Origin: Nitrospirota bacterium
Lineage (GTDB): Bacteria; NPL-UPA2; JAADIA01
Assembly (NCBI GenBank): GCA_013151555.1
Contig: JAADIA010000084.1
Coordinates: 1 to 20,964 of the forward strand
Direction of reading: 5' to 3'
DNA: 20,964 bases
The notes under the pieces were generated by a model. The model ran no database searches, was not told where the DNA came from, and worked only from the letters and a program-made list of their open reading frames with translations. Position 1 is the first letter of the stretch; each line of letters begins with the position of its first letter. Shown in pieces: positions 972-20,226 of the stretch. Both the position numbers and the translations under genes were made by a program.

Positions 972-1022
972 TAAGCAGTAAGTTGTAAGAATTAAGTTCT
1001 TCCCAATCCTCAACTCTTAATC
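972..1022. repeat. Inverted heptad repeat array between ftsW and murG
   Basis: Read on the minus strand just after the ftsW stop, the spacer divides into 7-nt units: GGATTAA, GAGTTGA, GGATTGG, GAAGAAC, then TTAATTC, TTACAAC, TTACTGC, TTAATTC. The second half is the reverse complement type of the first (GAATTAA, GCAGTAA, GTTGTAA), so the array is two facing arms. It is related to the arrays at 6222-6302 and 9673-9735. Confidence 0.7.
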
Positions 1023-2111
1023 CTACACCTTTCTCCGCCGGGAAATGTTCAACAGCAATCCCACTCCTATCATATTAAAAAGAAGAGACGAGCCTCCAAA
1101 GCTTATGAAGGGAAGCGGGATTCCTTTCGTCGGCAAAGACCCGGTAGCTACACCTATATTAATAATCGCCTGTAAACTAATAGTCATAGTGATTCCCACT
1201 CCTAAGAGATAACCAAATAAATCCGGAGCCCGGTAGGCAATTCTTATTCCTGCCCAGAGGAAAACGAGAAATAAAATAACGATGGAGGCTGTTCCGATAA
1301 AACCCAATTCCTCTCCCAGAATGGAGAAAATGAAATCGGTATAGGATGCCGGGAGATAGAACAATTTTTGTCTCGACCACACTAATCCTCGTCCGGTCAT
1401 CCCTCCTGAACCAAGAGCTATAAATGACTGGGTAATCTGATAACCCACTCCCGAGGCATCCTTCCAGGGATCCAGGAAAGCAAGAATGCGTCGTTGTCGA
1501 TAACCTACTCCCACAACCAGGAAATAGAGAGCGGGAAGAGAAGACAGCACCAAGCCCGTCAGGTAGGTTATTCTTGCTCCGGCAATGAAGAGAAGGGAAA
1601 GAGAAACCACTCCTAAGAGCAATCCCGTTCCTAAATCCGGCTGGAGAAGAATAAGTCCGACCATTCCTCCCAGGACCAATATCGGGGGAAGGAACCCTTG
1701 CGAGAACTTCTTTATCTTGCTTTGTTTCCGGGTAAGATAATCGGATAAATAGATAAGGAGAGCTAATTTCCCTACCTCCGAAGGTTGAAAACTGAACCCT
1801 CCTATTCTCAACCAGCGCCGGGCTCCTCCCGCCTCCCTCCCCAACGGGGGAAAGAGAACCAAAGCAAGAAGAATCATCGTCAGGAACAACAAGGGCTTGC
1901 TAAGAGATCTTATCAACTCATACTTAATTTTCCAAGCAGCCAACATGGCAATTGATCCCAATAAGGCCCAGAGGAGTTGTCTCTTCAGAAAGAAGAGACT
2001 ATCCCCAAATTTCTCATTTGCAAAGATAGCACTGGTGCTATATATAGATACCAAACCGAAACCTATCAAAATGAAGGTAACAAGAAAAAGCAGGTAACCA
2101 CTCTTTTTCAT
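1023..2111 (-). CDS. ftsW: FtsW, SEDS-family septal peptidoglycan polymerase
   Basis: Lipid II polymerase (glycosyltransferase) of the divisome, partner of the FtsI transpeptidase. The 362-residue protein is polytopic (about 10 hydrophobic segments) with SEDS landmarks in order: GGARRW with QPSE (about residues 95-112), ILLQPDLGT, the YTDFIFSILGEELGF segment in the large extracytoplasmic region, and the C-terminal PLPFISFGGSSLL. The start codon overlaps the murD stop by 4 nt (ATGA), indicating translational coupling. Position between murD and murG favours FtsW over RodA. One deviation: the family usually has LPEAHTDF, whereas here it reads LPASYTDF, so the Glu and His are replaced while the Asp stays. 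Length is typical; the C-terminus RRRKV is cytoplasmic and short. Confidence 0.95.
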   Translation of the reverse strand: MKKSGYLLFLVTFILIGFGLVSIYSTSAIFANEKFGDSLFFLKRQLLWALLGSIAMLAAWKIKYELIRSLSKPLLFLTMILLALVLFPPLGREAGGARRWLRIGGFSFQPSEVGKLALLIYLSDYLTRKQSKIKKFSQGFLPPILVLGGMVGLILLQPDLGTGLLLGVVSLSLLFIAGARITYLTGLVLSSLPALYFLVVGVGYRQRRILAFLDPWKDASGVGYQITQSFIALGSGGMTGRGLVWSRQKLFYLPASYTDFIFSILGEELGFIGTASIVILFLVFLWAGIRIAYRAPDLFGYLLGVGITMTISLQAIINIGVATGSLPTKGIPLPFISFGGSSLLFNMIGVGLLLNISRRRKV

Positions 2112-3469
2112 TTTAGATGCCCCACAGCTTCTTTAAAAACCCTTCCCCTTTCTTCAAAATCTTTGAACATATCAAAGCTGGAACAGGCAGGAGAGAGAAG
2201 CACGGTCTCTCCCTTAACCGCTAAGGAATAAGAGACCCGCACCGCATCCTCCATTGAATCCACTTCCTTGATCGAAGTAGTCCCCGCAAGAGCCTTCTTA
2301 ATTTTATCCTTTACCTCGCCCAGAAGAATCAGGGCCTTCACTTTCTCCTCGACTAATTCCCTCAAGATTGAGTAATCGCCCCCCTTATCCCGACCTCCCG
2401 CTATAAGGATAATCTGTCCCTTTAGACCTTCCAAGCACCTGACCACCGCTCCCACATTCGTTCCCTTGGAATCATTTATGAACTTGACTCCTCCGATTTC
2501 GTCCACAAACTCCGAGCGGTGGGGAAGACCGGAAAATTGCGTTAGAACCTGAGCTATAATTCGGGGATCGACCTTACAAATTAAGGCAACAGCCGTTGCC
2601 GCCAGAGCATTCTCCAAATTGTGAGTTCCCTTAATACCCAGTTCATCACAGGCAAGGATAACCTGACTCTTCCCACCCTCCCGGAAGATTATTTTTCCTT
2701 CTTCCACGAAGACTCCTTTCCTCAACTGCCGCTTCCGGCTGAAGAAAAAAGTTTCGGCTTCAGCTTTAGAGTGGGAACTATCGTCCTTACAAAGGTTGTC
2801 ATCATCAGCATTAAGCACAGCAAAGTCTTTTGTTCCCTGATTGGACAATAACCGTTGCTTAACCTTCAAGTAACGAGAGAAAGAGTTATCATACCTATCC
2901 AGATGATCGGCGCTGACGTTAAGAATAACAGCAATGAAAGGTTTGAAATCCTTTATCGTTTCCAGTTGAAAGCTGCTTACCTCCACGACCGCGAGAACAT
3001 CTTTGCTCAGTTTCCCTACCTCACCGCAGAAAGGATTGCCAATATTTCCCGCAACGTTGACTCTTCGTCCTCCCGCTCTAAGCATCTCACCGATCAGAGT
3101 AACTGTGGTCGATTTTCCATTAGTGCCGGTAATGGCAATAATCGGAGCTTCACACCAATAGCATCCTAACTCCAACTCGCCGATGAGAGGAATTCCTTTC
3201 TCCCGCGCTATAGTAAAAGAGAGAGAATCAGGAGGCACCCCCGGACTGACTACGATTAAGTCAGCTCCTTCTATAGCCTCCTGACCATGTTGTCCTACCT
3301 CAATTTTAATACCTCTCTCCTTCAATTTCCCGGCCCTCTTTCCAATAGCTTCGCCAGAGAATTTATCAGTAACCGTAACCTCCGCACCTCTGTCAATAAG
3401 AAGTTGAGCAGCAGCCAATCCGCTCTTCCCCAACCCTACTACCGTGACTTTCTTTCCTCGAACTTCCAT
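2108..3469 (-). CDS. murD: MurD, UDP-MurNAc-L-alanine:D-glutamate ligase
   Basis: Cytoplasmic ATP-dependent ligase adding D-Glu to UDP-MurNAc-L-Ala. The 453-residue protein has the N-terminal Rossmann motif VVGLGKSGLAA (10-20), the Mur ligase P-loop TGTNGKSTT (114-122), the EVSSFQLE segment, NVSADHLDRY, the carbamylated-lysine region YLKVKQRLL, and in domain 3 GLPHRSEFV and NDSKGTN followed by IAGGRDKGGD. Length is normal. The ATG at 3469 follows an AGAGG closely. The stop overlaps ftsW by 4 nt. The 216-bp gap upstream to mraY is filled by a nested inverted repeat element rather than a promoter I can recognise. Confidence 0.96.
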   Translation of the reverse strand: MEVRGKKVTVVGLGKSGLAAAQLLIDRGAEVTVTDKFSGEAIGKRAGKLKERGIKIEVGQHGQEAIEGADLIVVSPGVPPDSLSFTIAREKGIPLIGELELGCYWCEAPIIAITGTNGKSTTVTLIGEMLRAGGRRVNVAGNIGNPFCGEVGKLSKDVLAVVEVSSFQLETIKDFKPFIAVILNVSADHLDRYDNSFSRYLKVKQRLLSNQGTKDFAVLNADDDNLCKDDSSHSKAEAETFFFSRKRQLRKGVFVEEGKIIFREGGKSQVILACDELGIKGTHNLENALAATAVALICKVDPRIIAQVLTQFSGLPHRSEFVDEIGGVKFINDSKGTNVGAVVRCLEGLKGQIILIAGGRDKGGDYSILRELVEEKVKALILLGEVKDKIKKALAGTTSIKEVDSMEDAVRVSYSLAVKGETVLLSPACSSFDMFKDFEERGRVFKEAVGHLK

Positions 3470-3502
3470 CCTCTGTCTCTCTCATCGCTAAGAAAACTTT
3501 AT

Positions 3503-3654
3503 AACCACAGATAAACACTGTCCCTTTAATTTTCACCGCAGAGTTCGCAGAGATTACTTAATTTTAAACATAATTTTCATTTTCTTCTCGGCGACCTCGG
3601 CGTTCTCGGCGGTAATTAGGTAAAGAGTTTGTTCTTCTGTGTCCATCTATAGTT
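3503..3654. repeat. Nested inverted-repeat element between mraY and murD
   Basis: Outer arms: AACCACAGATAAACAC (3503-3518) faces the reverse complement AACTATAGATGGACAC (3654-3639), 12 of 16 matching. Inside lies a second element: left arm from 3535 (ACCGCAGAG, TTCGCAGAG), right arm ending 3613 which on the minus strand reads CGCCGAGAA, CGCCGAGGT, CGCCGAGAA. Units repeat about every 9 nt. No ORF or promoter is evident. Confidence 0.75.
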
Positions 3655-3685
3655 AATCACCTATATTAACCCTCGCCATTCAATT

Positions 3686-4783
3686 TCATCTCAATTTCAA
3701 CGTACTCAGGCTAAACAGGGCAAAGATAACCGCCAATATCCAGAATCTGATAATAACTTTTGATTCCGCCCAACCCTGCAATTCAAAATGGTGGTGGAGA
3801 GGAGCTATTTTAAATACTCTTTTCTTCCGCCAACGGTAAGAGACAACCTGAATAATCACCGAGAGAGCCTCCATGACAAATACTCCCCCAACTATCAGGA
3901 GAAGCAACTCCTGTTTGATAATGACCGCTACTATTCCCAGCACTCCTCCCAGCGCCAGAGAACCCGTATCCCCCATAAAGATCTGAGCAGGATGACTATT
4001 GAACCAGAGGAAACCTAATCCTGCCCCGACTATGGCAATAAGGAAAATAGTTAATTCTCCACTTCCCGCTATCGGGACCAGACCTAAATATTCACTGAAC
4101 TTACTGTTCCCGGTCACATAGCTCATCCCTGCATAAGCGGAAGCCGCTATCACCACACAGCCGATAGCCAATCCATCCAACCCGTCGGTTAAATTAACGG
4201 CATTGGAAGTGCCTACAATGACCAGCATAACGAAGGGAATGTAGAGCCAGCCCAAAGGAAAGAATAAATGCTTGAAGAAAGGAAAAGCAAGTTCCGTCCC
4301 ATGCTCAGGATTAAGGGGATAATAATAGAGATAAAGGCCGATTAGAAAACCTAAAAGCAATTGACCTGTTAATTTGGTCTTTGCTCTCAACCCCGAGGGT
4401 TTCTTCCTCACTACTTTCAGATAATCATCGATAAAACCCAGCAAGCCTAACCAGATAGTGGAAAGAAAAACAAGAATGATGAACCTATTGCTCAGGTCCG
4501 TCCAGAGAATTACGGGTAAAAGGATACCGATTAAGATAAGGATCCCCCCCATAGTAGGTGTTCCCTCTTTCCCTTGATGGAGATTTTTAAGTTCCGGGCA
4601 AGCTTCCTTGCCTATTCTCTCTCTCACTTTGAACTTACCCAATTTTCTGATGACGAGAGGTCCCAGGAGAGTAGTAAGGAGAAGTGCCGTTACCCCGGCC
4701 ATCGCCGCCCGGAAAGTGATGTAACGAAAGACATTAAAGGGGAAAAATATTTCCCGTAGCTTAGGATAGAGATAATAAAACAT
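3686..4783 (-). CDS. mraY: MraY, phospho-MurNAc-pentapeptide translocase
   Basis: Integral membrane enzyme that transfers phospho-MurNAc-pentapeptide to undecaprenyl phosphate, making lipid I. The 365-residue protein has about ten hydrophobic segments and all family signatures: KEGTPTMGG (72-80), the catalytic Asp pair in FIDDYLK (D119, D120), NLTDGLDG (197-204), FNSHPAQIFMGDTGS (261-275, with D272) and the PLHHHFE histidine cluster (328-334). The start lies inside the end of murF (23-nt overlap), with a strong GGAGGAG ribosome site inside murF coding sequence, so the pair is coupled. Length and motifs are typical. Confidence 0.97.
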   Translation of the reverse strand: MFYYLYPKLREIFFPFNVFRYITFRAAMAGVTALLLTTLLGPLVIRKLGKFKVRERIGKEACPELKNLHQGKEGTPTMGGILILIGILLPVILWTDLSNRFIILVFLSTIWLGLLGFIDDYLKVVRKKPSGLRAKTKLTGQLLLGFLIGLYLYYYPLNPEHGTELAFPFFKHLFFPLGWLYIPFVMLVIVGTSNAVNLTDGLDGLAIGCVVIAASAYAGMSYVTGNSKFSEYLGLVPIAGSGELTIFLIAIVGAGLGFLWFNSHPAQIFMGDTGSLALGGVLGIVAVIIKQELLLLIVGGVFVMEALSVIIQVVSYRWRKKRVFKIAPLHHHFELQGWAESKVIIRFWILAVIFALFSLSTLKLR

Positions 4784-6206
4784 CGATTATCTCCTCCATC
4801 CGCATGGCCCTGGAACCCTTGACCAGGATAGTATCATCCTCTTTTATCATCTCCGCCAGTTCCTTCCCCGCTTCCCGGCTATCCCGGAAAGTAAAGATTT
4901 CTCCCTCCAGGCCCTCTTTCTTCGCTTCTTCAGCCAAAACCCGAGAGAGGCTACCCACAGTAATGAGAATATCAGGGGAACAAGAAGTCACCAGTCTCCC
5001 CACTTCCCGGTGAGCTTCTTCGCCCCATTCCCCCAACTCCAGCATATCCCCCAAAACAGCCACTTTTCTTCCCCCTACCTGGAGATGACTTAATAACCCC
5101 AGGGCCATTTTCATGGATTCGGGATTTGCGTTATAGGTATCATTAATAATTTTTATCTTCGAACTAAGCCTTTTCAAACTCAGGGAAATAACTTCCATCC
5201 GCTGCGACGAAGGCTTAAAACTTTCCAAGCCCTCCTTGATAAGATTCAAATCCAGGTCAAAGGTAGCCGAGATAGCTACCGCCGCCAGGGCATTGTAGAT
5301 ATTAGCATGTCCGGGAATAGGAAGTTCAACCTCTAACCTCTCTCCCTTTCCTTCCAAGGTCGATAAGATAAACTTCGTTTTACCATCGGGAAGATATTCA
5401 ACCTGGCCCGCTCGAAAATCGGCTTCTTCCTCTATCCCAAAACTAATTAATCGTCCTTTAATCCGCTTACTAAGAGCCCATACCCTCTGATCATCCCTGT
5501 TCAAAACAAGCGTGTTCTCATTTCCTAAAGTTTCCACTAACTCAGCCTTGGCCCGGGCTACTTCTTCTATATCCTGAAAAAATTCCAGGTGCGCCCTGCC
5601 TATATTGGTTATCACTCCCACCTGAGGTTTGATCAATTGAGTAAGATACGCAATTTCTCCGGGAGCATTCATCCCCACCTCCAGAACAGCTGCTTGATGA
5701 GAAGGAGAAAGCCGAAGTAAAGTCAGCGGAACGCCTACCTCGTTGTTAAAACTGCCCTCTGCCTTCAGAACAGCTAACTGCCTGCCCAAGATAGCTGCTA
5801 CCATATCTTTGGTAGTCGTCTTTCCGTTCGTTCCTGTTATAACCACAAGGGGGATATCAAATTTATTCCGGTAACAACCGGCAATATCCTGCAAAGCCTT
5901 CAGGGTATCAGGCACCCGGACAATAACTTGTAATCCGGAATCCGCCTGTGCCCGCCTGTGCCCGTAAGGGTATAAGGGTAGAACTCGGAAATCGTCAGAG
6001 ACGATAGCGCCCCGGGCTCCTCTCTGAAAGGCTTCTTCTACAAAATCATGCCCGTCAAACCTTTCCCCTTTCAAGGCTAAAAACATCTCTCCGGCTTTCA
6101 CCGTACGGGAATCTATAGAGATACCGGGAACCGCTAACTGCCCGTCCCCCTTAAGCAACCGGCCCTTAGCAGCTTCCAAAATCTCTTCAACTCTCATCAT
6201 TTCCAT
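4761..6206 (-). CDS. murF: MurF, UDP-MurNAc-tripeptide:D-Ala-D-Ala ligase
   Basis: Cytoplasmic ligase completing the UDP-MurNAc-pentapeptide. 481 residues: N-terminal substrate domain (DSRTVKAGEMFLALKGERFDGHDF region, 32-55), P-loop ITGTNGKTTTKD (123-134), LEVGMNAPGEI, NIGRAHLEFF and the domain-3 segment INDTYNANPESM. The ATG at 6206 has GAGG four nucleotides upstream; ATGs at residues 3 and 4 are also possible. Oddity: residues about 75-89 form an extra stretch rich in Pro, Tyr, His and Arg between the usual VSDDF and VIVRVPDTLKAL segments. It is encoded by a tandem repeat (5944-5980), so it appears to be an in-frame repeat insertion in the N-terminal domain. The catalytic core is intact, so I expect a working enzyme. 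Confidence 0.95.
   Translation of the reverse strand: MEMMRVEEILEAAKGRLLKGDGQLAVPGISIDSRTVKAGEMFLALKGERFDGHDFVEEAFQRGARGAIVSDDFRVLPLYPYGHRRAQADSGLQVIVRVPDTLKALQDIAGCYRNKFDIPLVVITGTNGKTTTKDMVAAILGRQLAVLKAEGSFNNEVGVPLTLLRLSPSHQAAVLEVGMNAPGEIAYLTQLIKPQVGVITNIGRAHLEFFQDIEEVARAKAELVETLGNENTLVLNRDDQRVWALSKRIKGRLISFGIEEEADFRAGQVEYLPDGKTKFILSTLEGKGERLEVELPIPGHANIYNALAAVAISATFDLDLNLIKEGLESFKPSSQRMEVISLSLKRLSSKIKIINDTYNANPESMKMALGLLSHLQVGGRKVAVLGDMLELGEWGEEAHREVGRLVTSCSPDILITVGSLSRVLAEEAKKEGLEGEIFTFRDSREAGKELAEMIKEDDTILVKGSRAMRMEEIIDVLLSLS
5944..5980. repeat. Short-period tandem repeat inside murF
   Basis: The plus strand shows two perfect copies of GCCTGTGCCC (5944-5953, 5954-5963), followed by GTAAGGGTATAAGGGTA. 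On the coding strand this is ACCCTTAT, ACCCTTAC (8-nt units), then GGGCACAGGC twice (10-nt units). It keeps the murF frame. Confidence 0.75.
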
Positions 6207-6221
6207 GCAACCTCAAACACA

Positions 6222-6302
6222 GGATTAAGGATTAAGTTGTAAGTATTAAGCAAAAAACTTAATTCTTAGAGCGAACGAAGTAAGCGTCTTAATCCTTAAT
6301 TC
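6222..6302. repeat. Inverted heptad repeat array between murE and murF, overlapping the murE 3' end
   Basis: Left arm on the plus strand in 7-nt units: GGATTAA, GGATTAA, GTTGTAA, GTATTAA (6222-6249). The right arm is in the opposite sense (TTAATCC, TTAATTC, 6289-6302). The right arm supplies the last codons and stop of murE (the residues RIKD). Confidence 0.75.
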
Positions 6303-7773
6303 TATCTTTTTCTTTTAGTATCTTCCTCACCACATCCCGGTCATCGAAAGGAATGACTGTATCCTTCAAGACCTGGTAGCTCTCATGCCCCTTTCCCGCT
6401 ACTATTACTAAATCGTCTTTCCCCGCCCGGGACAAAGCTTCCTTTATAGCCCGGGAACGGTCCTCAACGATGGCATAATTCGCTCTTCTCCCGAATCCCC
6501 CCTGGATCTGGCGAATAATCTCTCCCGGCTCCTCGCTTCTCGGATTATCAGAAGTAAGGATAGAATAATCACTGTAGCGGGAGGCAATCCTTCCCATCAA
6601 AGGACGCTTACCTTTGTCCCGGTCCCCTCCACAGCCAAAGACGGTAATAATCTTTCCCTTACCCATCCTTCCAGACATCTTCAAGAGGTTTTCCAAAGCC
6701 TGAGGGGTATGAGCATAATCTACGATAATAGTAAATTCCTGCCCGGCATCGACCAATTCAAACCTTCCCGGAACCCCTTCGATCTTCTCCAAACCCTCTT
6801 TGATAGTGCCCAGCTCCACTCCCTGGCTGATTCCCACCCCGATGGCGGAAAGAATATTATAGACGTTACCCTTCCCGATGAGTTTTACCTTCAGAGAAAA
6901 GGAACCTGCCGGAGTATTCACCCGAAAAGAAGTGCCGGTTAAACCAAGTTTTATTCGGGAAGCCCGGATATCGGCTCTTCGACTCAATCCATAAGTGAGG
7001 ACTTCTACCGGGGTTATCTTGCGCAGATAACGGCCATAGCGGTCGTCGAGATTGATTAAGGCCAAGCCCGGATCTTTCGTCCTTTCCCGTTCTCCCAACT
7101 TTTGAAAAAGAATGGCCTTAGATTTAAGATAATGGGAAAGATCTCCATGATAATCAAGATGGTCCCGCGTTAAGTTGGTAAAAATTCCGACATCGAATTC
7201 CACTCCATCCACCCGATGCTGGTCCAGAGAATGGGAGGAAACCTCCAGAATGGCAATCCGGCAATCCGCTTTAATCATCTCACTGAGCATCCTTTGGAGG
7301 TCAAGAGAAGAAGGAGTAGTATTTGCCGCCGGAAGGACCCGTTCTCCCCAGCGATAATTTATGGTTCCTACTAAACCGACTTTAAATCCCGCGGCCTTGA
7401 AGATAGCCTCCGAGAAATAAGTAGTAGTCGTTTTCCCATTAGTTCCGGTAACTCCGATAACCTTAATCCTGCCGGAAGGATGTTCATAAAAATTATCGCT
7501 AACCTTAGCCAGAGCCACACGACTACAGGGCACGATGACCTGAGTAAAGTCTTTTCTCCCCCCCCAATCCTCTTCGGTAATTATAACTGTCGCCCCTCTT
7601 TCCAAAGCCTCAGGGATAAAATCGTGTCCATCCGCACGATGACCTCTCAGGCAAACAAAGAGAAAATCCTTCTCCACTTTCCGGGAATCATAGGCAAGAC
7701 CCAAAACCTCTCGATTACTCTCTCCCCGAATCGATTTTATCTCTAGCCCTTTGAGCAGCTTCTTAAGTTTCAT
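6289..7773 (-). CDS. murE: MurE, UDP-MurNAc-L-Ala-D-Glu:meso-diaminopimelate ligase
   Basis: Cytoplasmic ATP-dependent ligase adding the third residue of the stem peptide. 494 residues: N-terminal domain (YDSRKVEKDFLFV, 28-40), P-loop GVTGTNGKTTTT (107-118), ILEVSSHSLDQHRV (175-188), FTNLTRDHLDYHGD (198-211), the lysine expected to be carbamylated in YLKSKAILF (K219), DYAHTP (352-357) and GCGGDRDKGKRP (380-391). The DNPR motif (409-412) is the signature of meso-diaminopimelate-adding enzymes, so the peptidoglycan should be of the mDAP type. No good Shine-Dalgarno is seen; only CGGAA directly abuts the ATG. The extreme C-terminus RIKD is encoded by the neighbouring heptad repeat. Confidence 0.96.
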   Translation of the reverse strand: MKLKKLLKGLEIKSIRGESNREVLGLAYDSRKVEKDFLFVCLRGHRADGHDFIPEALERGATVIITEEDWGGRKDFTQVIVPCSRVALAKVSDNFYEHPSGRIKVIGVTGTNGKTTTTYFSEAIFKAAGFKVGLVGTINYRWGERVLPAANTTPSSLDLQRMLSEMIKADCRIAILEVSSHSLDQHRVDGVEFDVGIFTNLTRDHLDYHGDLSHYLKSKAILFQKLGERERTKDPGLALINLDDRYGRYLRKITPVEVLTYGLSRRADIRASRIKLGLTGTSFRVNTPAGSFSLKVKLIGKGNVYNILSAIGVGISQGVELGTIKEGLEKIEGVPGRFELVDAGQEFTIIVDYAHTPQALENLLKMSGRMGKGKIITVFGCGGDRDKGKRPLMGRIASRYSDYSILTSDNPRSEEPGEIIRQIQGGFGRRANYAIVEDRSRAIKEALSRAGKDDLVIVAGKGHESYQVLKDTVIPFDDRDVVRKILKEKDRIKD

Positions 7774-7795
7774 TTCCGATATCCAATTAAATTAT

Positions 7796-7808
7796 CGCCC
7801 TTCGGGCG
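7796..7808. repeat. Perfect GC-rich hairpin upstream of murE
   Basis: CGCCC-TTC-GGGCG gives a 5-bp stem with a 3-nt loop, 22 nt before the murE start codon and adjoining the octad element at 7816-7883. No T-run follows it closely on either strand, so I do not call it a terminator. Confidence 0.5.
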
Positions 7809-7815
7809 GACTTTT

Positions 7816-7883
7816 AACCACTGAAGCACTGAAAATTTTAATTTGTTTTTCTTTCTTAATTCATTATTCCGTGTTTCCGTGGT
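7816..7883. repeat. Inverted octad repeat element between ftsI and murE
   Basis: Left arm AACCACTGAAGCACTGAA (units CACTGAAG, CACTGAAA); the right arm on the other strand reads ACCACGGAAACACGGAAT (units CACGGAAA, CACGGAAT). The arms face each other over a T-rich centre. A degenerate heptad stretch (7886-7915) follows towards ftsI. Confidence 0.75.
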
Positions 7884-7929
7884 CTTTCTTAAGTCGTTAA
7901 TCCTTAATTCTCAAGCATTTGAATACTTA

Positions 7930-9612: not shown

Positions 9613-9672
9613 GATGGAACCCCTCTGTAAAAACTCTAAGATACAAAATTAAAAGAACAGAATGAAGTTTTT

Positions 9673-9735
9673 CTTAACACTTAACACTTAATCCTTAATA
9701 CTTATAACTTAATTCTTAATACTTATAACTCAATC
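9673..9735. repeat. Nine-unit heptad tandem array between ftsL-like gene and ftsI
   Basis: Nine consecutive in-register 7-nt units on the plus strand: CTTAACA, CTTAACA, CTTAATC, CTTAATA, CTTATAA, CTTAATT, CTTAATA, CTTATAA, CTCAATC. All run in one direction, unlike the two-armed arrays elsewhere. The array ends 2 nt from the stop codon of the ftsL-like gene. Confidence 0.85.
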
Positions 9736-9737
9736 CC

Positions 9738-10984: not shown

Positions 10985-10998
10985 AATAAAATTTTGTC

Positions 10999-11023
10999 AC
11001 CACGAATAAATACGGATACAGAC
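10999..11023. repeat. Single arm of an octad-type repeat upstream of rsmH
   Basis: ACCACGAATAAATACGGATA resembles one arm of the two-armed elements elsewhere in the window; no matching second arm is evident. It lies within the 62-bp interval bounded by the direct repeats at 10974-10984 and 11036-11046. Confidence 0.4.
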
Positions 11024-11050
11024 AACCCCAACCTGTGTTTTCCCATGCTC

Positions 11051-11095
11051 ATAAAAAATAAAGGCTCGTTCCCAAAAATCACTAAAGAACGAGCC
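11051..11095 (-). terminator. Intrinsic terminator between mraZ and rsmH
   Basis: On the minus strand GGCTCGTTC (11095-11087) pairs perfectly with GAACGAGCC (11071-11063) over a 15-nt loop, and TTTATTTTTTAT follows immediately. It would end or attenuate the mraZ transcript about 190 nt beyond its stop, before rsmH. Confidence 0.75.
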
Positions 11096-11116
11096 CATTA
11101 AGAACTATCAGCCATA

Positions 11117-11260
11117 TTACTCACATTGCGAGATGTCATACCCTTCATTTCCCTTTATAGAAAAATTGAGCTTATATCCCATTACCTATACATCCTTAGC
11201 CCGGATTATTCTCATGGTTCCTTTGAAGCCCGGCAGCCTTAGGTGGTTATGCTTCTCCAT
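11117..11260 (-). pseudogene. Possible small ORF with an in-frame TAG downstream of mraZ
   Basis: After the mraZ stop the minus strand has AGAAAGGAAAT-ATG and an open frame of 24 codons (beginning MEKHNHLRLPGFKG), a TAG at 11188-11186, then 22 more codons in the same frame (VMGYKLNFSIKGNEGYDISQ and two more) to a TAA at 11119-11117. I do not recognise either half. It may be a decayed small gene, two short peptides, or chance coding in a structured 3' leader that ends at the terminator 11051-11095. Without the internal stop it would be only about 47 residues. Confidence 0.25.
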
Positions 11261-11280
11261 ATTTCCTTTCTCCATTTCCT

Positions 11281-11730: not shown

Positions 11731-11750
11731 TTCTGATCCCCTAAGGCCCC

Positions 11751-11780
11751 GTTTCCCCCACTTCCTTCCACTTCCTCCCA
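11751..11780 (-). promoter_or_regulatory. MraZ operator: three 10-bp direct repeats
   Basis: On the minus strand the region reads as three in-register decamers, TGGGAGGAAG, TGGAAGGAAG, TGGGGGAAAC. This matches the known MraZ site in other bacteria (TGGGN direct repeats with 5-nt spacing). They cover about +1 to +30 of the predicted transcript, consistent with autorepression. Confidence 0.8.
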
Positions 11781-11786
11781 CCTGTG

Positions 11787-11815
11787 ATTATACCCTCTCC
11801 ACTTTTCCTTGTCAA
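11787..11815 (-). promoter_or_regulatory. Consensus sigma-70 promoter of mraZ/dcw cluster
   Basis: Minus strand TTGACA (11815-11810), 17-nt spacer, TATAAT (11792-11787): a perfect match to the housekeeping consensus. Predicted start of transcription is near 11780, about 50 nt before the mraZ ATG. Confidence 0.9.
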
Positions 11816-12092
11816 GAGATTTACTGATTTTTCTTTTCCTCAACATTGATACAGAAAAATATTCCCCTTTGTTTACCCCTCAAGCACAATATATTGATAC
11901 TTAGCATTCCTTTAACATCTATATAAGGGCATAGGGGGGATTAAAAATCTCCTGCGCAAAAAGAAGGATGGTTTTATCTTGAAGAAGGGATGGCTAAGCT
12001 CTAATTACTAAAGGAACCTACTTGTATGAGGTGTGAGATGGAATGAAAGTCTGTTGATCGTTTACCAGGGAAGGAAAAAAACAGCAAGGGTA
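11816..12092. other. Intergenic stretch between RNase P RNA and the mraZ promoter
   Basis: AT-rich 277 bp without a credible ORF or RNA. The minus strand directly after the RNase P RNA has CCCTTGCTG followed by seven T (about 12084-12075), which could serve termination of the RNA but lacks a clear local hairpin. I see no inverted repeat arrays here, in contrast to most other spacers in the window. Confidence 0.5.
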
Positions 12093-12497
12093 AGCTGGAG
12101 TTGGCCATAAGCCGAGTTCTGTATTTGATGATCATCTATCTGTCCGCCAAATTGCTCTGACGGATCAAGCGGCCAACCCGAGGGTCATAGCGCGGGATGG
12201 GCATCCCGTATCCGTCCCTCGCAGGGAACGGAATTCCCCTCTTATTTGGCCTTGCTCCGGGTGGGGTTTACCATGCCTCCCCTGTCACCAGAGGAGCGGT
12301 GAGCTCTTACCTCGCCTTTTTTACCCCCTTTGCTTGTTTACACAAGCAAACAATGGAGGCTGTGTATTTTCTGTGGCACTTTCCGTCGGGTCACCCCGCG
12401 TCGCCGTTAGCGACCACCCTGCCCGATGGAGCTCGGACTTTCCTCCCCTCCGCCAATCTTTTGGGCAGAGGAGCGATCATCCTGCCAACTCCAGCTC
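12093..12497 (-). ncRNA. rnpB: RNase P RNA (bacterial type A)
   Basis: Catalytic RNA of RNase P, which matures tRNA 5' ends. On the minus strand the 5' conserved block GAGGAAAGTCCGAGCTCC (about 12446-12428) and the 3' conserved block ACAGAACTCGGCTTATGG (about 12121-12104) are both present in the right order and spacing. The ends are set by helix P1: AGCTGGAGTTGGC at 12496-12484 pairs with GCCAACTCCAGCT at 12105-12093, 13 bp. Length of about 405 nt fits a type A molecule. A local hairpin TTTGCTTG/CAAGCAAA near 12335-12355 is likely P12. It lies 53 bp after rnhA on the same strand; a TATTAAT lies just upstream of P1 but I cannot define a firm promoter. Confidence 0.95.
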
Positions 12498-12549
12498 CAG
12501 ATGAAGCTATTAATAGGGCCCAGCAGATTAATATGTAATCTCTGGTTCA

Positions 12550-12954
12550 TTATAAACTCATGTCAATGGCTTGATTGGCTAACTTATCCGCCTCTTGATT
12601 TTTCTCCCGACCTATATGTTTTATCTCCACCTTCTTAAATCCTTCCCGGAGATGCTCAACCTGTTTGGAGAAAATCTTCAATAACTCGTTTTTAATCCGA
12701 TACCTCCCATCCATCTGCTTTACTACCAGCTCACTATCCATATAGATAGTAAGATATTTGGACTGACAAAGAAGTCCTTCCTGGAGTCCATAAATCAAAG
12801 CTACATACTCCGCCACATTATTGGTCGTTTTTCCCAGGTATTGTTTTATCCTCTTCAGAACATTCTCTTTATCATCATAAACGATGACGCCTATTCCCGC
12901 TCTTCCCGGATTTCCCCGAGAGGCTCCATCCACGTAAATAATCAATCTTTCCAT
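12550..12954 (-). CDS. rnhA: Ribonuclease HI family protein
   Basis: Cleaves the RNA strand of RNA-DNA hybrids. 134 residues with the RNase H fold and the full acidic active site: D9 in YVDGASRGNPG, E49 in NNVAEYVAL, D73 in YMDSELVV and D123 in NQEADKLAN, plus H113 in IKHIGRE. The length and the VDGASRGNPG form are those of the short bacterial RNase HI subfamily often found next to a C4 zinc-ribbon gene, exactly the arrangement here. ATG at 12954 with AAGGAAG upstream. The 257-bp spacer to the zinc-ribbon gene contains an inverted repeat element. Confidence 0.92.
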   Translation of the reverse strand: MERLIIYVDGASRGNPGRAGIGVIVYDDKENVLKRIKQYLGKTTNNVAEYVALIYGLQEGLLCQSKYLTIYMDSELVVKQMDGRYRIKNELLKIFSKQVEHLREGFKKVEIKHIGREKNQEADKLANQAIDMSL

Positions 12955-13036
12955 CCGTTCTTCCTTATTAAAAACAAAGAGCTTTGACTCCAGATTATCA
13001 TCGGATTGAATAGTTCTAATAGCTTAAAGAAAACAA

Positions 13037-13113
13037 GACAGGATCAACAAGATTAAACTGGATTTTTTAATTTTCTTATCGTTTCTATCCTGTTTAATCC
13101 CGTAAATCCTGTC
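13037..13113. repeat. 77-bp element with 27-nt imperfect terminal inverted repeats
   Basis: Left arm (13037-13063) and the reverse complement of the right arm (13113-13087) are both 27 nt and agree at 22 positions. Units of about 9 nt: ACAGGATCA, ACAAGATTA, AACTGGAT on the left; ACAGGATTT, ACGGGATTA, AACAGGAT on the right. It lies between the zinc-ribbon gene and rnhA. Confidence 0.8.
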
Positions 13114-13211
13114 AAAAGAAAGAATCAAACCTTAATCTTTATCTGCCCAAATCCGGTATCCCTGCTTGTTGTAGTCTGCGCTTTTAAAAACCGGCCTGAT
13201 TTGTTTAATTT

Positions 13212-13943
13212 TTAACCAGCTGAATCCGTACCTTCTTCAGTGTCAGGCAGGTATAATATCCGGGAGCATCTCTCACATATTATCATCCGGCGAGCTTGCA
13301 TAATCTCGTTTATCACCTGGGGCGGAAGTTTGGTAAAACATCCCTGACAAGCTTCAGCATTCACCGGCACCAGAGCTAACCCGCTTTTACCTTTTAAAAT
13401 CTTCTCATAGTAAGCAAGAAGCTTAGCTTCTATCTTCTTTGCCCCTTCTTCCCGCTCCTCTTGTCTTTTTCGTAGTTCTTCCTTCAGGATAGATACTCTT
13501 TCCTGGTTTTTCTTCTCTTCTTCAGCTAATTTCTCTCTTTCCTTTTCTAACTCTTCTTTTCTCCTCCCTACCATCTTTCTCAGTTCCTCTGCTCTTTCCA
13601 TCATAGCTAATATCTCATTCTCCCATTCCGAATGCTCCTGTTTCAAGCTATCGATTTCAAGCATGAGGGCAGAGTACTCTTTATTAGTCTTCACCTCATA
13701 TAACTGAGATTGATATTTGCTTAGAGAAGCTTCTTTAACACTCAATTCCCTCTCTTTGTGACGACGGTCCTTGTCCATATCTTCGAGCTTCTCCCCAATC
13801 TCCTCACAACTGTTCTCTCCTTGCTTAATGCTCTCTCTGAGAGTAATAATTTCCTCAGGAACAGTATCTATCTCTTTTTCTAACCTTTGAATGTGCCTAT
13901 CAATTTCCTGCAACTGAGTTAACAATTTTATCTGCTGACGCAC
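13212..13943 (-). CDS. Coiled-coil protein with C4 zinc ribbon (CdsZ-like)
   Basis: 243 residues. A long charged coiled coil (about residues 1-175, rich in Glu/Lys/Arg with heptad leucines) is followed by a C-terminal zinc ribbon with C199-x2-C202 (ACQGCF) and C223-x2-C226 (ICERCSRILY). This is the widespread zinc-ribbon family that includes Rv2229c/CdsZ-type proteins, thought to act in RNA or ribosome-related roles, but the exact function is uncertain. Start is GTG at 13943, with GAGG about 8 nt upstream. Its neighbour rnhA is a common partner. Flanking spacers on both sides carry inverted repeat elements. Confidence 0.85.
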   Translation of the reverse strand: MRQQIKLLTQLQEIDRHIQRLEKEIDTVPEEIITLRESIKQGENSCEEIGEKLEDMDKDRRHKERELSVKEASLSKYQSQLYEVKTNKEYSALMLEIDSLKQEHSEWENEILAMMERAEELRKMVGRRKEELEKEREKLAEEEKKNQERVSILKEELRKRQEEREEGAKKIEAKLLAYYEKILKGKSGLALVPVNAEACQGCFTKLPPQVINEIMQARRMIICERCSRILYLPDTEEGTDSAG

Positions 13944-13965
13944 TTCTTTTCCTCTCTTAAATTAA

Positions 13966-14048
13966 GCACAGAGACACTAAGTTAAAAAATCTAAAAAGCT
14001 GCAAGTATTGGCTTTTATTTTTCCTTTGTGCCTTTGTGCCTTGTGCCT
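13966..14048. repeat. Inverted octad repeat element between acsB and the zinc-ribbon gene
   Basis: Left arm GCACAGAGACACTAAGT (units CACAGAGA, CACTAAGT). The right arm on the minus strand reads GGCACAAGGCACAAAGG with a further CACAAAGG unit. The spacer lies 9 nt from the acsB stop. Confidence 0.65.
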
Positions 14049-14056
14049 TGTCGTTA

Positions 14057-16233
14057 TTACATCAAAGGTTCCATAGTTAATGCCGGGTGTTTCTCCTTCT
14101 CCAGAAAAGCAAGCAACTGCTCCGAGGTCTCGGCTACCGATTCATCGGCAATCTTATCAACGAGATCCGGAATTCCTATTTCTTCTGCCCGGGCCTTCAA
14201 TCTATCCCCAAGTGCTTCTTTAAGCTCCTTAGGCATCCAGACTACTCTTTTCAGACCCCCATCTGCAGAGATAAACTTCTTGCTGACGATGTACAATCTT
14301 CCTACTCCCAGGAACCCGGGTGTCTGATTTCCACCGCCCACAGAACCCGCCAGAGTGCTGAAAGCCATGCCGCAGGGAGTCATTCCCGGATACTCCCGAT
14401 TAACAATCATTATCCCGTTAGCCTCAGGAATAATAGCCACAATACACTCAAAGCAACCACATGATGTTTCCGGGTCTTCCATTAAAGAATAAGCATTGAA
14501 CCTTTCAATATGCTTATTGGACTTGGCATAGACGACTTTGTTTACCCCTTCCCACTGACCTTTAACCTCATCTATCGTCTTACCCTTAATAATCGGCTGG
14601 TTGGGACCGGTAGGATTTATCTCATAGGCAGCTTTCCCATCCAGCCAGTTATAAGCACCGCAAAGCCCTAACCTTTCCGGACTGATAATGCAGACGTGGT
14701 CCGGGGCATAAGACTGACAAAGCGTACAAGAGTAAAAAATATCCACACTCTCATCGACCATTCCTGCCATTCTCTCATCACGCCATCTATAGGCCGCTTC
14801 CGCTTCGGGCATAATCCTATCGACATCTTCCTGGTTGGTATAGATAGTAACCTGAGCTTTGTCCACAATGGCTCCAAAGGTTTCCTGTAAGCAGGCATGG
14901 AGGATAACGCCAAAGTGTTTGATTTTAAAACCTTTCTTTTGGGCTTCCTTACTAATCCGCACCCAACACATATTCCTTTGCCCCATATGGAATATGCCCA
15001 TAGCCTCGTTTAAAAAGGTATGGACTTGCCGTTCCAGAATGGATTCAAAATCCTTCTGCATTTTCCTTCCGGCTACTTCCACCAGGATACCCAGAGGCAT
15101 AGCTCCACCTTCTTTCGCCTCATCGATTTCCGGACCGACTACCTCAACCTTGCCATCCTCAATCTCGCCCAACTCTTTCATACGCAGATATTCAAAAGCC
15201 GTCGAATATTTTCCGCCGAACTCTACATACATATCTTCTCTTCTTACTCTTTCCCCCTCAAAGGCCGCCGCATGGGCCACCGGAATGGGAATCTCGGAAA
15301 CCTTCACCTTAACTCCCCGCACCGAGATACAGGTGGAAACTATTTTTTTACGGTCAAGTTCGCTAACCAGATGCTCATAAGTACAGATGCCGGTAGGTCG
15401 TATTTCCGGAATCTTTGTATCGGCAATTATCGGAAATCCCATATTAATAGCTCCGGCTCCGGTAGCATACTTTAAGTCATCTACCTCTCCCAGGGTCAAA
15501 CCGAAAGCGAAGATTCTATTCTGACAATATTTTAAACATTTGAGAGCTTCTCCCTTTTTGTGTCCGCCGAAAGTCAAAGCTCCCCTGATCGCCCAGTTGA
15601 GAGGATAGATGCCTGTAATAGTATCCCGGCCGTAAGGAACAATGTAAGTATCCCATCCCATCTCCACATTTTCTTCCTTTAACTGGTCAATGATACTCCG
15701 GCCGTTGACATTGCTGCCTACGAAAGAGAGAATGCTCCTTTTCTGAAACTCCCGGACGATTTCCACTGCGGTCTTATTGTCCGGAGCTGCTCCTAAAATA
15801 GCTGCAAATCCAGGCATCCGGCCATCGACCAACTGGATTCCCAGCTGTCTCAAAATAGTATCGGTAAAGAAACCGTTACAATCGGGTTGGGGCTCCTGGC
15901 CATAAAGATAGCGGAGAGAACAATAAGCTCTTCCGCTAAAAGAGTGGCCACGCCCGCATCCAGAGCATCTCCTAAATAGGGCAGCCATACTCTCTCTCCG
16001 GGCTCTTCACCTACGAGAGACTTGGCTTCCTCCAACACCGGTTTCATCTCCCCGACCGTTTTAACTTCCACGCCCATCAGGGCATAGGCCATGGGAAGAT
16101 AGAAAGCCGTCTCGGGGAACTCCACCTTTTGACTTTCTCCCTTATCCGCTACCGCTTTATTAATAAAATCCTCTGCTTCTTTAACTACCTTTTGCGCACC
16201 CCTGACGGCCGCCGCAGCAACTATCTTGGACAT
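14057..16233 (-). CDS. acsB: Acetyl-CoA synthase (CODH/ACS subunit, bacterial type), frameshifted
   Basis: Forms acetyl-CoA from CO, a methyl group from the corrinoid protein, and CoA in the Wood-Ljungdahl pathway. The start ATG at 16233 has an AAGGAGG site. The coding region is in two frames: 16233 to about 15920 (N-terminal MSKIVAAAAVRG), then -1 to the frame read to 14057 (ending HPALTMEPLM). Joined, it gives about 725 residues, the size of the Moorella enzyme (about 729). All six A-cluster cysteines are present: about C503, C506, C515, C525 (FYSCTLCQSYAPDHVC, LGLCGA) and C592, C594 (SCGCF). The break lies near AEELI/SLRYLYGQEP; one extra base there restores continuity, and no slippery heptamer is seen. 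A sequencing or assembly indel is most likely, a real mutation next. It follows the CooF-like and oxidoreductase genes. Confidence 0.92.
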
Positions 16234-16271
16234 ACTCGCCTCCTTAATTAGAAATTCATACTGTCAAATTC

Positions 16272-16367
16272 AACCACGGAAATACGGAAATTTACTTTAT
16301 AACTCTTTAATTCTTCCCATTCTAAATTCATTTTTCCGTGTCTCCGTTCTTCCGTGTCTCTGTGGTT
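16272..16367. repeat. Inverted octad repeat element between oxidoreductase and acsB
   Basis: Left arm AACCACGGAAATACGGAAAT (units CACGGAAA, TACGGAAA). The right arm on the minus strand reads CACAGAGA, CACGGAAG, AACGGAGA, CACGGAAA, four in-register octads. The centre is AT-rich. It fills most of the 152-bp spacer upstream of acsB. Confidence 0.8.
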
Positions 16368-16385
16368 TTCATAATATTTTTGACA

Positions 16386-17696
16386 TTATCCTACCATTTG
16401 ATTAAACAACCTGTCCGTCTCCGAAATTTTTTCCTCTTTCATCAGATGAACAACTCTGGAATAGTTAAAGGTCTCTTCCATAATCTCATCTTTTATTTCC
16501 GAAACATCAACTTTATCTCTAATTAAAGAGAGAAGCACTCCCGCAGGATTAATCCTTCCCAACAAAATTGCTCCTACTATTCTATTATCCCTAAGTACTA
16601 TCTTTCGATAAAAACCCTTCTCGGGGATATCTCTAATTACCTCCTCATATCCCTTCTCCCCCGGTCGGGTTATCCCTATAGAGATAACCGGCAAATCGAA
16701 AAACTCGATAGAATTCATCCCTATAGAACCAGCATATTTATGTTCCTCGCCTGCTTTCTCCCCGGATTTCCGGAGAGCCATATTGTAACCGGCGATTCTT
16801 CCCTGTTCCACTGCACAAGGCCAGAGAGCGTTAATGGTCGTCCGGCCACTTACGATGTCCACCGTCTCTGCTACGTCTCCAGCCGCATAAATATCGGAGA
16901 TATTAGTCCCCTGTTTCTCATCAACTGAAATACCCCGGGAAACCTTAATAGCCGTCCCTTTCACTAAATCAATATTGGGAGTTACCCCCTTGCCGATAAC
17001 AACCAACTGGCAGTCCACACTCGCACCGTTGTCTAATTTTAATCCTTTCACGGAACCATCATCCGCCAATATTTCCTCGGCAGCCAAACCAGTCATCACC
17101 TCAATACCGTTCTCTTCAATTCGCTTCCTGAAAATAGCTGCGGCTCTCTCGTCCAGCATTTGGGAAAGGACCCGGTTGGACTTGATAATGACCTTAACCC
17201 GGAGTCCTCTTTTTCTCAAGCCATACGCAGCTTTAAGTCCAATCAATCCTCCCCCAAGGACGGCAGCTACTTTAACTTTGTCGAGCCTCTGGAGAATATT
17301 TTGCACATCCTCTACCGTACGCAGTCCAAAAACGCCTTTCCTGTCTTCTCCCTTAATATTGAGAAGCTTAGGAGAAGCTCCCGTAGCTATCAGTAACTTA
17401 TCATAGGCAATCTCTTCTTTACCAGCGAGGATAACTTTTTTCTTCTCCGGTTCAATCTTCTCCACTTTTTTTCCTAAAAGGACTTCGATTTTATTTTTTT
17501 CATAAAAATCTTCCGGGCGGAAAAGTAATTTCTTCTCCTCGATGTCACCAGCTAAATAGTAAGAGAGAAGACAACGAGAATAAGGAGGATAACCCTCCGC
17601 CGAAACCATGGTAATCTTCCCGGTCTTATCCACTTTCCTAATCGCCTCGGCTCCACTTATTCCCGCAGCACTATTGCCAATGATAAGATAATTCAT
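16386..17696 (-). CDS. FAD-dependent NAD(P) oxidoreductase (CooF-associated type)
   Basis: 436-residue pyridine nucleotide-disulfide type flavoprotein: FAD-binding IIGNSAAGISGAEAI (5-19), the ATGASP motif (104-109), NAD(P)-binding VLGGGLIGLKAA (146-157), and the second FAD motif IYAAGDVAE (269-277), followed by a C-terminal domain. The family includes NADH oxidases, rubredoxin reductases and the N-terminal half of NirB. The neighbours suggest the FNOR-type protein that, with a CooF-like ferredoxin, passes electrons between CO/acetyl-CoA metabolism and NAD(P). Strong GGAGGGG ribosome site before the ATG at 17696. The role is inference from context; the fold is certain. Confidence 0.85.
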   Translation of the reverse strand: MNYLIIGNSAAGISGAEAIRKVDKTGKITMVSAEGYPPYSRCLLSYYLAGDIEEKKLLFRPEDFYEKNKIEVLLGKKVEKIEPEKKKVILAGKEEIAYDKLLIATGASPKLLNIKGEDRKGVFGLRTVEDVQNILQRLDKVKVAAVLGGGLIGLKAAYGLRKRGLRVKVIIKSNRVLSQMLDERAAAIFRKRIEENGIEVMTGLAAEEILADDGSVKGLKLDNGASVDCQLVVIGKGVTPNIDLVKGTAIKVSRGISVDEKQGTNISDIYAAGDVAETVDIVSGRTTINALWPCAVEQGRIAGYNMALRKSGEKAGEEHKYAGSIGMNSIEFFDLPVISIGITRPGEKGYEEVIRDIPEKGFYRKIVLRDNRIVGAILLGRINPAGVLLSLIRDKVDVSEIKDEIMEETFNYSRVVHLMKEEKISETDRLFNQMVG

Positions 17697-17724
17697 TTCC
17701 CCTCCCCTGGAACTTTAATATCTT

Positions 17725-17839
17725 AACCACAAAGACACGAAGAAAATCCTTAAATTCCTTTTGACAAGATGAACAGGATTGATCAGAACAATTTTCAATA
17801 ATTACGTTAAAGTTTTAGTTGTTTTCGCGCCTTCGTGGT
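17725..17839. repeat. Inverted octad element with an internal nonad stretch, upstream of the oxidoreductase
   Basis: Left arm AACCACAAAGACACGAAG (CACAAAGA, CACGAAGA) faces ACCACGAAGGCGCGAAAA read from the other strand. Inside, 17762-17785 carries ACAAGATGA, ACAGGATTG, which resembles the arms of the element at 13037-13113, as if one element had landed in another. The part just outside the right arm (17840-17860) has further degenerate units. Confidence 0.7.
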
Positions 17840-17896
17840 AATCTGTGTTTAATCTCGTGAATTCTTCTGGTTTCATCTTTCTCTGTTACTATATGG

Positions 17897-18388
17897 TTAT
17901 GAAGTTTTCTTGGTTACGGGTTGCGAGTTACGGGTTACTGTTTTTTTGAACTCTTCCGGCTCCATAAAAACCAATGCTCCCGTCGGACAGGCAACTACAC
18001 AGGCAGGCTCTTCCTTTTCCCGGCAGCGGTCACACCTGAGAGGCAACTTCCGTTCCCCATCAGGATTAACAGCTCCATAAGGACAGACCATAAGGCACAT
18101 CCAACAACCAACGCACCTCTCCTCATCCTGAACAACCGCTCCCGTCTTTGAATCTTTGCTCAAACATCCTGACATACAAGCAACTACACAGGCGGGCTCA
18201 TCACAGTGGCGGCAGGCCAGGGGGAAAGCTCTCTCTTTTCCATATTCAACTTTCAGACGATAGCGCGGAGAAGGTTTCTCTTCCACGGCTTGAAATAAAT
18301 CTTTGCTCCGGGAATGTTCCAACGCACAAGCAATCTCACAGGATTTGCATCCTAAACACTTCTCTAAGTTACAGAATAGGTATTTCAA
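17897..18388 (-). CDS. CooF-like 4Fe-4S ferredoxin protein
   Basis: 163-residue electron carrier with cysteines for four [4Fe-4S] clusters: C11, C14, C17, C21; C59, C62, C67, C71 (CRHCDEPACVVAC); C92, C95, C98, C102 (CVGCWMCLMVCPYG); C119, C122, C130, C134 (CDRCREKEEPACVVACPTGA). This is the CooF/HycB/DMSO reductase beta-subunit arrangement. With the next gene and acsB it suggests electron transfer in CO/acetyl-CoA metabolism. Start is a TTG at 18388, supported by GGGAGG 7-8 nt upstream and by the conserved KYLFCNLEKC beginning. The last residues (about 150-160, TVTRNSQPVTK) come from a heptad repeat array and are probably not part of the ancestral protein. Confidence 0.87.
   Translation of the reverse strand: MKYLFCNLEKCLGCKSCEIACALEHSRSKDLFQAVEEKPSPRYRLKVEYGKERAFPLACRHCDEPACVVACMSGCLSKDSKTGAVVQDEERCVGCWMCLMVCPYGAVNPDGERKLPLRCDRCREKEEPACVVACPTGALVFMEPEEFKKTVTRNSQPVTKKTS
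17912..17939. repeat. Four-unit heptad array inside the 3' end of the CooF-like gene
   Basis: Plus strand units: GGTTACG, GGTTGCG, AGTTACG, GGTTACT, exactly 28 nt in register. The array is read through in frame and encodes the C-terminal tail of the CooF-like protein. Confidence 0.8.
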
Positions 18389-19696: not shown

Positions 19697-19900
19697 TTCT
19701 TTGTCTTCCTTTCTATAATCTGTGAAGACCGGCTCGTGAAAGACTACCTAATTAATTAGGCCCTAAATTTAAAGTAACTATTTACCATAAAACTGTACCA
19801 AACTTTTTAATGCTATATCCACCCTTATTTTGACTATCTCATTTAAACCCCCAAAAAAATAACCGGAGATCCTAAAAATATAGCCCTATCTTCTTTAACC

Positions 19901-19916
19901 TGCAATTTTCGTGCCA
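19901..19916 (-). promoter_or_regulatory. Sigma-54 (RpoN) -24/-12 promoter of the PEP-CTERM gene
   Basis: The minus strand reads TGGCACGAAAATTGCA, an exact match to the sigma-54 consensus TGGCACG-N4-TTGCW. Transcription would start near 19890, leaving a leader of about 190 nt before the ATG at 19696. PEP-CTERM/exosortase genes are known in several lineages to be under a PrsK/PrsR-type sigma-54 system, which fits. Confidence 0.8.
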
Positions 19917-20191: not shown

Positions 20192-20226
20192 CTGCCCCTC
20201 TCACCCGGAAAGGGTTGAATTTATCC

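Follow-up and report, generated by a model that had tools for sequence, protein, structure and literature searches.

What are the tandem arrays of short units, arranged as two facing arms, that lie between the genes of contig JAADIA010000084.1 of a Nitrospirota bacterium, and how did they come to be there? The window (the whole 20,964-nt stretch analyzed, contig C95 in a 1.81-Mb assembly of 99 contigs that is 93.7% complete) carries a minus-strand dcw cluster and, further, rnhA, a zinc-ribbon gene, acsB, an oxidoreductase gene and a CooF-like gene. It represents a small phylum; the nearest relatives in the genome set belong at best to the same order, and a MurE-based scan of genome contigs found no close relative. 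In nine of the 13 window spacers of at least 31 nt there is a dispersed repeat in which tandem units of 7, 8 or 9 nt form two facing arms. These arms are probably those of mobile elements of the type known as intervening sequences (IVSs), and the window probably holds derivatives that lack the gene for the intervening-sequence protein, IVP or S23, a four-helix-bundle protein first known from the IVSs of 23S rRNA.

Arrays were scored over the near-complete genome sequence after genes had been called, with 968 clean spacers of 31 to 400 nt as the test set. Arrays of period 7, 8 or 9 with a score of at least 10 occurred in 180 of the 968 spacers, against 3.8 in dinucleotide shuffles, and inverted arms with a score of at least 12 occurred in 139, against 1.5 in shuffled sequence; coding segments, used as a control for arrays, gave 2 of 739. 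The excess was found at periods 7, 8, 9 and 14, with almost none at 5, 6 and 10, and inverted arms were present in 45% of array-bearing spacers versus 10% of array-free spacers. Over 13 unit motifs, 67 of 68 arm pairs pointed inward (67 convergent, one divergent), and in a motif-free test the 5′ arm was purine-rich in 54 of 57 pairs, a constancy of polarity that random local slippage would not yield. Convergent and inverted more strongly than in shuffles, these terminal arms are capable of forming a stem, as those of an IVS are. An earlier note on this DNA had proposed that one plan is shared by many unit sequences, and this is borne out, the arms facing each other far above chance. Neither of the two outcomes that it had named as refuting, spacers elsewhere free of such arrays and arm complementarity no higher than in shuffled sequence, was obtained. 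Its statement that nearly every nonoverlapping junction is occupied holds for the window, which is denser in repeats than the genome as a whole, but not for the genome, where 426 of 1,063 spacers (∼40%) share a repeat with another spacer; a coding control for these shared repeats suffered from overlap among its samples and was set aside.

The arrays belong to dispersed families. Each of the nine repeat-bearing window spacers, searched against the genome, gave 15 to 53 matches, and the copies are 73 to 95% identical over 60 to 170 nt, core included. Alignments reveal conserved nonarray cores, sharp ends, a locked unit phase and a variable unit number; a core resembling AAAAAACTTAATTCTTAGAGCGAACGAAGTGAGCGTC, for example, lies almost always between the heptad arms of the element type found at murE/murF. 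Iterative clustering gave 26 dispersed families with 660 copies, 619 of which lie between genes, even though spacers account for 16.8% of the genome, and 17 of these families (535 copies, 50 kb) are of the array type. Elements are also nested within the loops of one another. Dispersed copies share a conserved core, which refutes an origin of each array by slippage at its own locus. The arms of one element match no better (14.4) than arms taken across copies (16.7) and show no pairwise covariation, which implies that selection does not preserve strict pairing within the hairpin. Among the causes listed earlier, a mobile element is therefore favored, while per-locus slippage and selection for pairing hairpins are not, and the view that one process rather than one spreading sequence is at work is not supported, because each unit family is a spreading sequence in itself.

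Orthologous junctions in relatives, the comparison by which the earlier note had proposed to check its observation, point to insertion. In a genome of the same order (G001), the ftsL/ftsI, ftsI/murE, murE/murF and mraY/murD junctions measure −11, 1, 4 and −4 nt, and different relatives have different junctions occupied: in G002, for example, ftsW/murG holds a GGCAC array, and in G006 a CACAGAG hairpin occupies ftsL/ftsI. GGCAC unit arrays number 47 in G002 and 17 in the genome under study, are absent from three further members of the order, and occur singly in each of four genomes outside the phylum; the backwards-motif control for such counts of GGCAC/CACGGA-type patterns across genomes was not clean, because CACGGARA is itself a unit family. 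Arrays of ACAGGATTN were found in the genome under study and in one genome outside the phylum, there adjoining CACGGAGA arrays. Plasmids provide clean empty sites. A VirB-type operon is filled in two plasmids (L236 and L237) and empty in two others (L252 and L257), with an identity of about 98% between filled and empty plasmids. Where empty, the site reads AAAAAGTAATTAACAAAT; where filled, it reads AAAAAGTAAT-AAATCAGAATTC...IVP...TTCTTCTTT-GTAATTAACAAAT, that is, an element of ∼420 nt with a 5-nt duplication, GTAAT, whose length is taken from one clean site. At the same site, plasmid E of Nostoc C052 (L253) retains a left arm and a broken IVP start, and this remnant is a decay intermediate. 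In another Nostoc plasmid operon, two adjacent junctions are filled in some plasmids, by elements with different units, and empty in others, where they measure 1 to 4 nt or overlap. Whole elements thus insert at cistron junctions.

The identity of these elements was indicated by a search for genes enclosed by convergent arms. Arms of family A (unit TTAAGNN, 7 nt) surround a PF05635 gene, that is, a gene for the 23S rRNA intervening-sequence protein IVP, which also has a weak match to an Avd-like family. The genome contains five PF05635 genes and a sixth cut by a contig end. All six adjoin repeat arms or, in one case, small hairpins, and the unit differs each time (TTAAGNN, AAGTGCTCC, AAGTTAC, AAATCAC/CAATATA and CGAAANN among them). 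The TTAAGNN element with IVP lies between carA and carB, as judged by flank sequence, and the sixth IVP gene starts beside arms of CGAAANN, the unit of family 1. When inverted flanks were scored blind over 1,424 genes, four of the five IVP genes ranked 4, 5, 9 and 16. Two of the IVP-flanking units are shared with large IVP-less families of the same genome, namely, A (47 copies) and family 1 (66 copies), and families 22 and 24 include both IVP-bearing and IVP-less copies that align through their arms. IVP is present in complete elements, but most elements are IVP-less. An IVP open reading frame (ORF) is absent from all nine window elements, and their location is intercistronic rather than within an rRNA gene; as their relatives in families A, 1, 22 and 24 include IVP-bearing copies, the window elements are filed as IVP-less derivatives and not as IVSs.

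The same enclosure is found in other replicons. IVP loci on plasmids (18, mostly cyanobacterial, with one from Azospirillum and one from Gemmatirosa) were compared by Fisher's test with other genes in the same stretches, an inverted flank score of at least 13 being counted as enclosure. IVP genes were enclosed in 17 of 18 cases versus 4 of 65 control genes (P = 5e-13), with a period of 7 or 8 on both sides, and on IMG/VR contigs 22 of 26 nonduplicate IVP loci were enclosed versus 1 of 60 control ORFs (P = 2e-15). Nearly all enclosed loci in both sets have period 7 or 8, and their units vary widely (GGAGTCA, AGGTGAC, AGGGTGT, GGGAGTA, AAAAGGG, GGCAGAA, GTTCGGC, AAGGAACT and others). Elements with IVP occupy junctions of cas6/cas4, cas10/cmr3, nrd, carAB and VirB operons. 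The Azospirillum IVP gene (L248) lies within a 23S rRNA gene (Rfam LSU) and its arms are GGACAGA heptads, so textbook IVSs and spacer elements follow one plan.

We envisage the following mechanism. A complete element would consist of two convergent arms of 7- to 9-nt tandem units around an IVP/S23 gene and would insert where harm is small, either at helix tips of 23S rRNA or at cistron junctions, just past the stop codon of one gene and ahead of the start codon of the next. An insert between stop and start codons, or a stem in an rRNA helix that is cut by RNase III, would have a low cost and be nearly neutral. Copies that lost or never had the IVP gene would retain the arms and a short core, and would make up the majority of the population, including all nine window elements. 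IVP may act in trans, helping its own and related elements to spread, and arms in RNA may be cut by RNase III as in rRNA IVSs. Unit number drifts between copies, probably by slippage or recombination.

Several points weigh against this interpretation. Insertion is read from compared sequences rather than from observed movement, and the families of this genome, in which few copies are full length, show no consistent target duplication. The outside IVP loci come mostly from cyanobacterial plasmids and IMG/VR contigs and not from this phylum. Beside the IVP gene of contig C62 (L064, 2283-2648), the place of tandem arms is taken by small hairpins in series, TAGTCACTTCGTGAC among them, and these may represent a second design of arm. 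For the CACAGAG/GGCAC (8-nt) and ACAGGATTN (9-nt) families, which occupy most of the other window junctions, no member with an IVP gene was found, and their link to IVP therefore rests on shared architecture. In other genomes and viral contigs, no IVP gene was found beside GGCAC or ACAGGATT arrays, and no IVP gene was detected in G002 with its 47 GGCAC-array matches. Across 193 genomes, IVP was present in 6 of 8 with GGCAC-type/ACAGGATTN unit arrays versus 61 of 185 others, a difference that is suggestive only.

The alternative that survives best, although we regard it as improbable, is that the arrays are ordinary miniature inverted-repeat transposable elements (MITEs) of one or more conventional transposases, with the tandem units serving as transposase binding sites at the ends and IVP as a frequent passenger. 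Like MITEs, the array elements are short, noncoding, multicopy, dispersed and intergenic, with terminal inverted repeats of constant polarity. One 5-nt target duplication is on record, at an IVP insertion, and the few full-length copies of this genome gave no such signal. However, a MITE has the same ends as an autonomous, recombinase-encoding element, and here it is IVP that was found between the arms: no known transposase gene was found to be enclosed by array arms, and the gene family recurring between them across phyla is IVP, which has no recombinase match. The Y1 (RAYT-like) gene of the genome itself (L003, contig C1, 6284-6910) has another inverted repeat, AAAGGGGACAGGCTACTTT, on its flanks in place of array units. 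Two candidate mobilizers were considered and rejected: RAYT, because the flanks of the RAYT-like gene carry this different repeat, and reverse transcriptase, because this 93.7%-complete genome contains no PF00078 and no recognizable reverse transcriptase.

Selection for intercistronic RNA hairpins that stabilize, terminate or process operon mRNA would agree with the convergent arms and the strong preference for spacers, and the occupied fraction is higher in codirectional spacers (0.31) than in convergent (0.20) or divergent (0.22) ones. Nevertheless, pairwise arm covariation is absent, the occupied junctions differ between species, elements are present in divergent spacers too, and a terminator would harm the dcw operon; this explanation is very unlikely. 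Independent replication slippage at each junction, with the second arm made by hairpin-templated copying, is scarcely credible. Unit number does differ between copies, and slippage on the scale of a polymerase footprint is an idea for heptamers cited in PMC4692102, but cores and ends are common to copies at unrelated loci, junctions are empty in relatives and the two arms of an element fit each other no more closely than arms from different copies do. Slippage is contradicted as the origin and likely remains the cause of drift in unit number. Paired sites for an IHF/HU-like chromosome-organizing protein, proposed for Geobacter metallireducens classes 1 to 3, have the same anatomy of opposite-strand sites with 3 to 5 tandem 7- to 8-nt repeats at variable distance, but that paper as read (PMC2700814) gives the binding proposal without a test, and enclosure of IVP, location in 23S rRNA and empty sites would be left unexplained, so we attach almost no weight to it.

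Within the window, gene calls confirm the overlaps at rsmH/ftsL (4 nt), murF/mraY (23 nt) and murD/ftsW (4 nt), and all nine spacers that the earlier note had named carry a dispersed repeat with 4 to 22 partner spacers elsewhere in the genome. Family A occupies the ftsW/murG spacer (961 to 1026; left arm, 966 to 996; right arm, 997 to 1026; 5 partner spacers), the murE/murF spacer (6219 to 6304) and the ftsL/ftsI spacer (9659 to 9736), the last with a long heptad right arm (9673 to 9736) and a decayed left arm. The murE/murF element has a left heptad arm at 6221 to 6250, a conserved core at 6251 to 6287 and a right arm at 6288 to 6304 that reaches the stop codon of murE; the relative of this element that carries IVP lies at C34:1291-1826. 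The mraY/murD spacer (3486 to 3647) holds a CGCAGAGNN / CTCGGCGNN (9-nt) element of de novo family 3, with 45 copies and 19 partner spacers, and the ftsI/murE spacer (7798 to 7912) holds a CACNGAAN / TTCCGTGT (8-nt) element of de novo family 0, with 70 copies. Outside the dcw cluster, the rnhA/zinc-ribbon spacer (13024 to 13120) carries ACAGGATTN arms (9 nt; left, ∼13036 to 13064; right, 13087 to 13114; inverted score, 14.5), the zinc-ribbon/acsB spacer (13964 to 14051) carries family B (GGCACNNA, 8 nt; left arm, ∼13966 to 13983; right arm, ∼14022 to 14051; 21 partner spacers) and the acsB/oxidoreductase spacer (16265 to 16384) carries CACGGAAN (8 nt; left arm, ∼16273 to 16292; right arm, ∼16333 to 16366). 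The oxidoreductase/CooF-like spacer (17725 to 17839) is composite, with CACGAAG arms and ACAGGATTN arms. Taken singly, five of the nine window arrays have a tandem score of <9, and these weak arrays were recognized only because they align with better-preserved relatives.

No partner spacer was found in the genome for 10985 to 11280, 11731 to 12549 (which is the RNase P RNA gene, with the RNA at 12093 to 12492) or 18389 to 18700. The spacer at 19697 to 20226 has an unrelated dispersed repeat, whose copy at 19883 to 20155 (consensus of 343 nt, 15 copies) is free of tandem arrays and therefore belongs to another kind of element. In element cores and spacers of several genomes of the phylum, CGAACGAAGTGAG or a motif close to it recurs, at 6269 to 6286 in the window and at L146, L148 and L149. 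A GGTTACG heptad array at 17912 to 17938 lies within the 3′ end of the CooF-like ORF, and an array arm may thus supply the codons for the C terminus of this protein. The acsB gene (14057 to 16233) is broken into two overlapping frames near 15850 (14057 to 15853 and 15850 to 16233), as would result from a frameshift or a misassembly. The ORF at 18701 to 19696 resembles a secreted metalloprotease with, as judged by eye, a PEP-CTERM-like C-terminal tail (PEPGTMILLSTGLLAFAVRRRR).

Parts of this picture have been described before. IVSs of 23S rRNA with an S23p/IVP ORF, as in Leptospira and Coxiella, share with the present elements the IVP/S23 gene, terminal inverted repeats forming a stem and variable tandem heptamers in a stem arm (PMC4990558), as well as decaying ORFs and a patchy distribution, with L248 as a case inside 23S rRNA with 7-nt arms. 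In Coxiella, tandem GACAGAT heptamers of variable number lie just upstream of the S23 ORF, and the RNase III site is at the first heptamer repeat (PMC4990558). In contrast, the window elements lie between protein genes and have no ORF, and the dispersed families are many, with hundreds of copies per genome. The GGGAATC and GGGGA(C/T)T heptads of Xanthomonas and Nostoc (Rehm et al. 2015, PMC4692102) are likewise intergenic 7-nt tandem arrays of variable length, with 70 to 75 convergent pairs per genome in Xanthomonas. Tandem 7-nt spacer units with convergent pairs are found here as well, together with units of 8 and 9 nt. However, those heptads were presented as simple repeats that form G-quadruplexes, the description including neither a link to IVP nor a conserved core or mobility, and each genome has one unit family, whereas here there are many.

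Geobacter metallireducens classes 1 to 3 (Aklujkar et al. 2009, PMC2700814) also have facing arms of 3 to 5 tandem 7- to 8-nt units, in dozens of copies and several unit families, but were read as regulator binding sites, and the sections consulted report no enclosed gene or mobility. TAACTGA repeats of Beggiatoaceae and cyanobacteria (PMC4679880) are intergenic tandem heptamers with a patchy distribution across phyla; unlike the present arrays, they are nearly all direct (one set is indirect), lie near start codons and were read as translational control sites. REP/REPIN sequences with RAYT transposases are short, nonautonomous, intergenic inverted-pair elements in hundreds of copies, but have no arms of tandem units, and their partner is a Y1 HuH transposase (PMC3116915).

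IVP elements were also seen within CRISPR-Cas operons at L235, L239 and L241 (cas6|cas4 and cas10|cmr3), and a figure legend on CRISPR-linked genes names IVP (PMC10910872). Such CRISPR-IVP links may be hitch-hiking insertions, and caution is advisable, as IVP genes in cas or other operons are probably insertions and not functional partners.

The earlier note had known of no established named family for these repeats. Earlier work has in fact reported facing heptads from Xanthomonas (PMC4692102) and from Geobacter (PMC2700814), and the Coxiella IVS is known to contain heptads (PMC4990558); the link to IVP/S23 was absent from that note, and in the open-access literature searched we found no statement uniting facing heptad arrays with S23-bearing IVSs. 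The anatomy of facing heptads and the IVS with S23 are thus already known, and what appears to be new is the joining of the two. More tentatively, IVP/S23 elements might constitute a distinct and very widespread class of bacterial mobile elements that has no recombinase of its own and spreads through rRNA helices and junctions within operons by means of a four-helix-bundle protein and enzymes of the host that work on the hairpin arms. The heptad arrays known from Xanthomonas, Geobacter, cyanobacteria and many uncultured phyla would then be its nonautonomous swarm. Three unexplained things, namely, the origin of rRNA IVSs, the role of the common S23 or “four helix bundle” protein and the facing 7- to 9-nt spacer repeats of many phyla, would become one testable system, and the link opens the way to a concrete test of mobility, with a marked element in the presence and absence of IVP.

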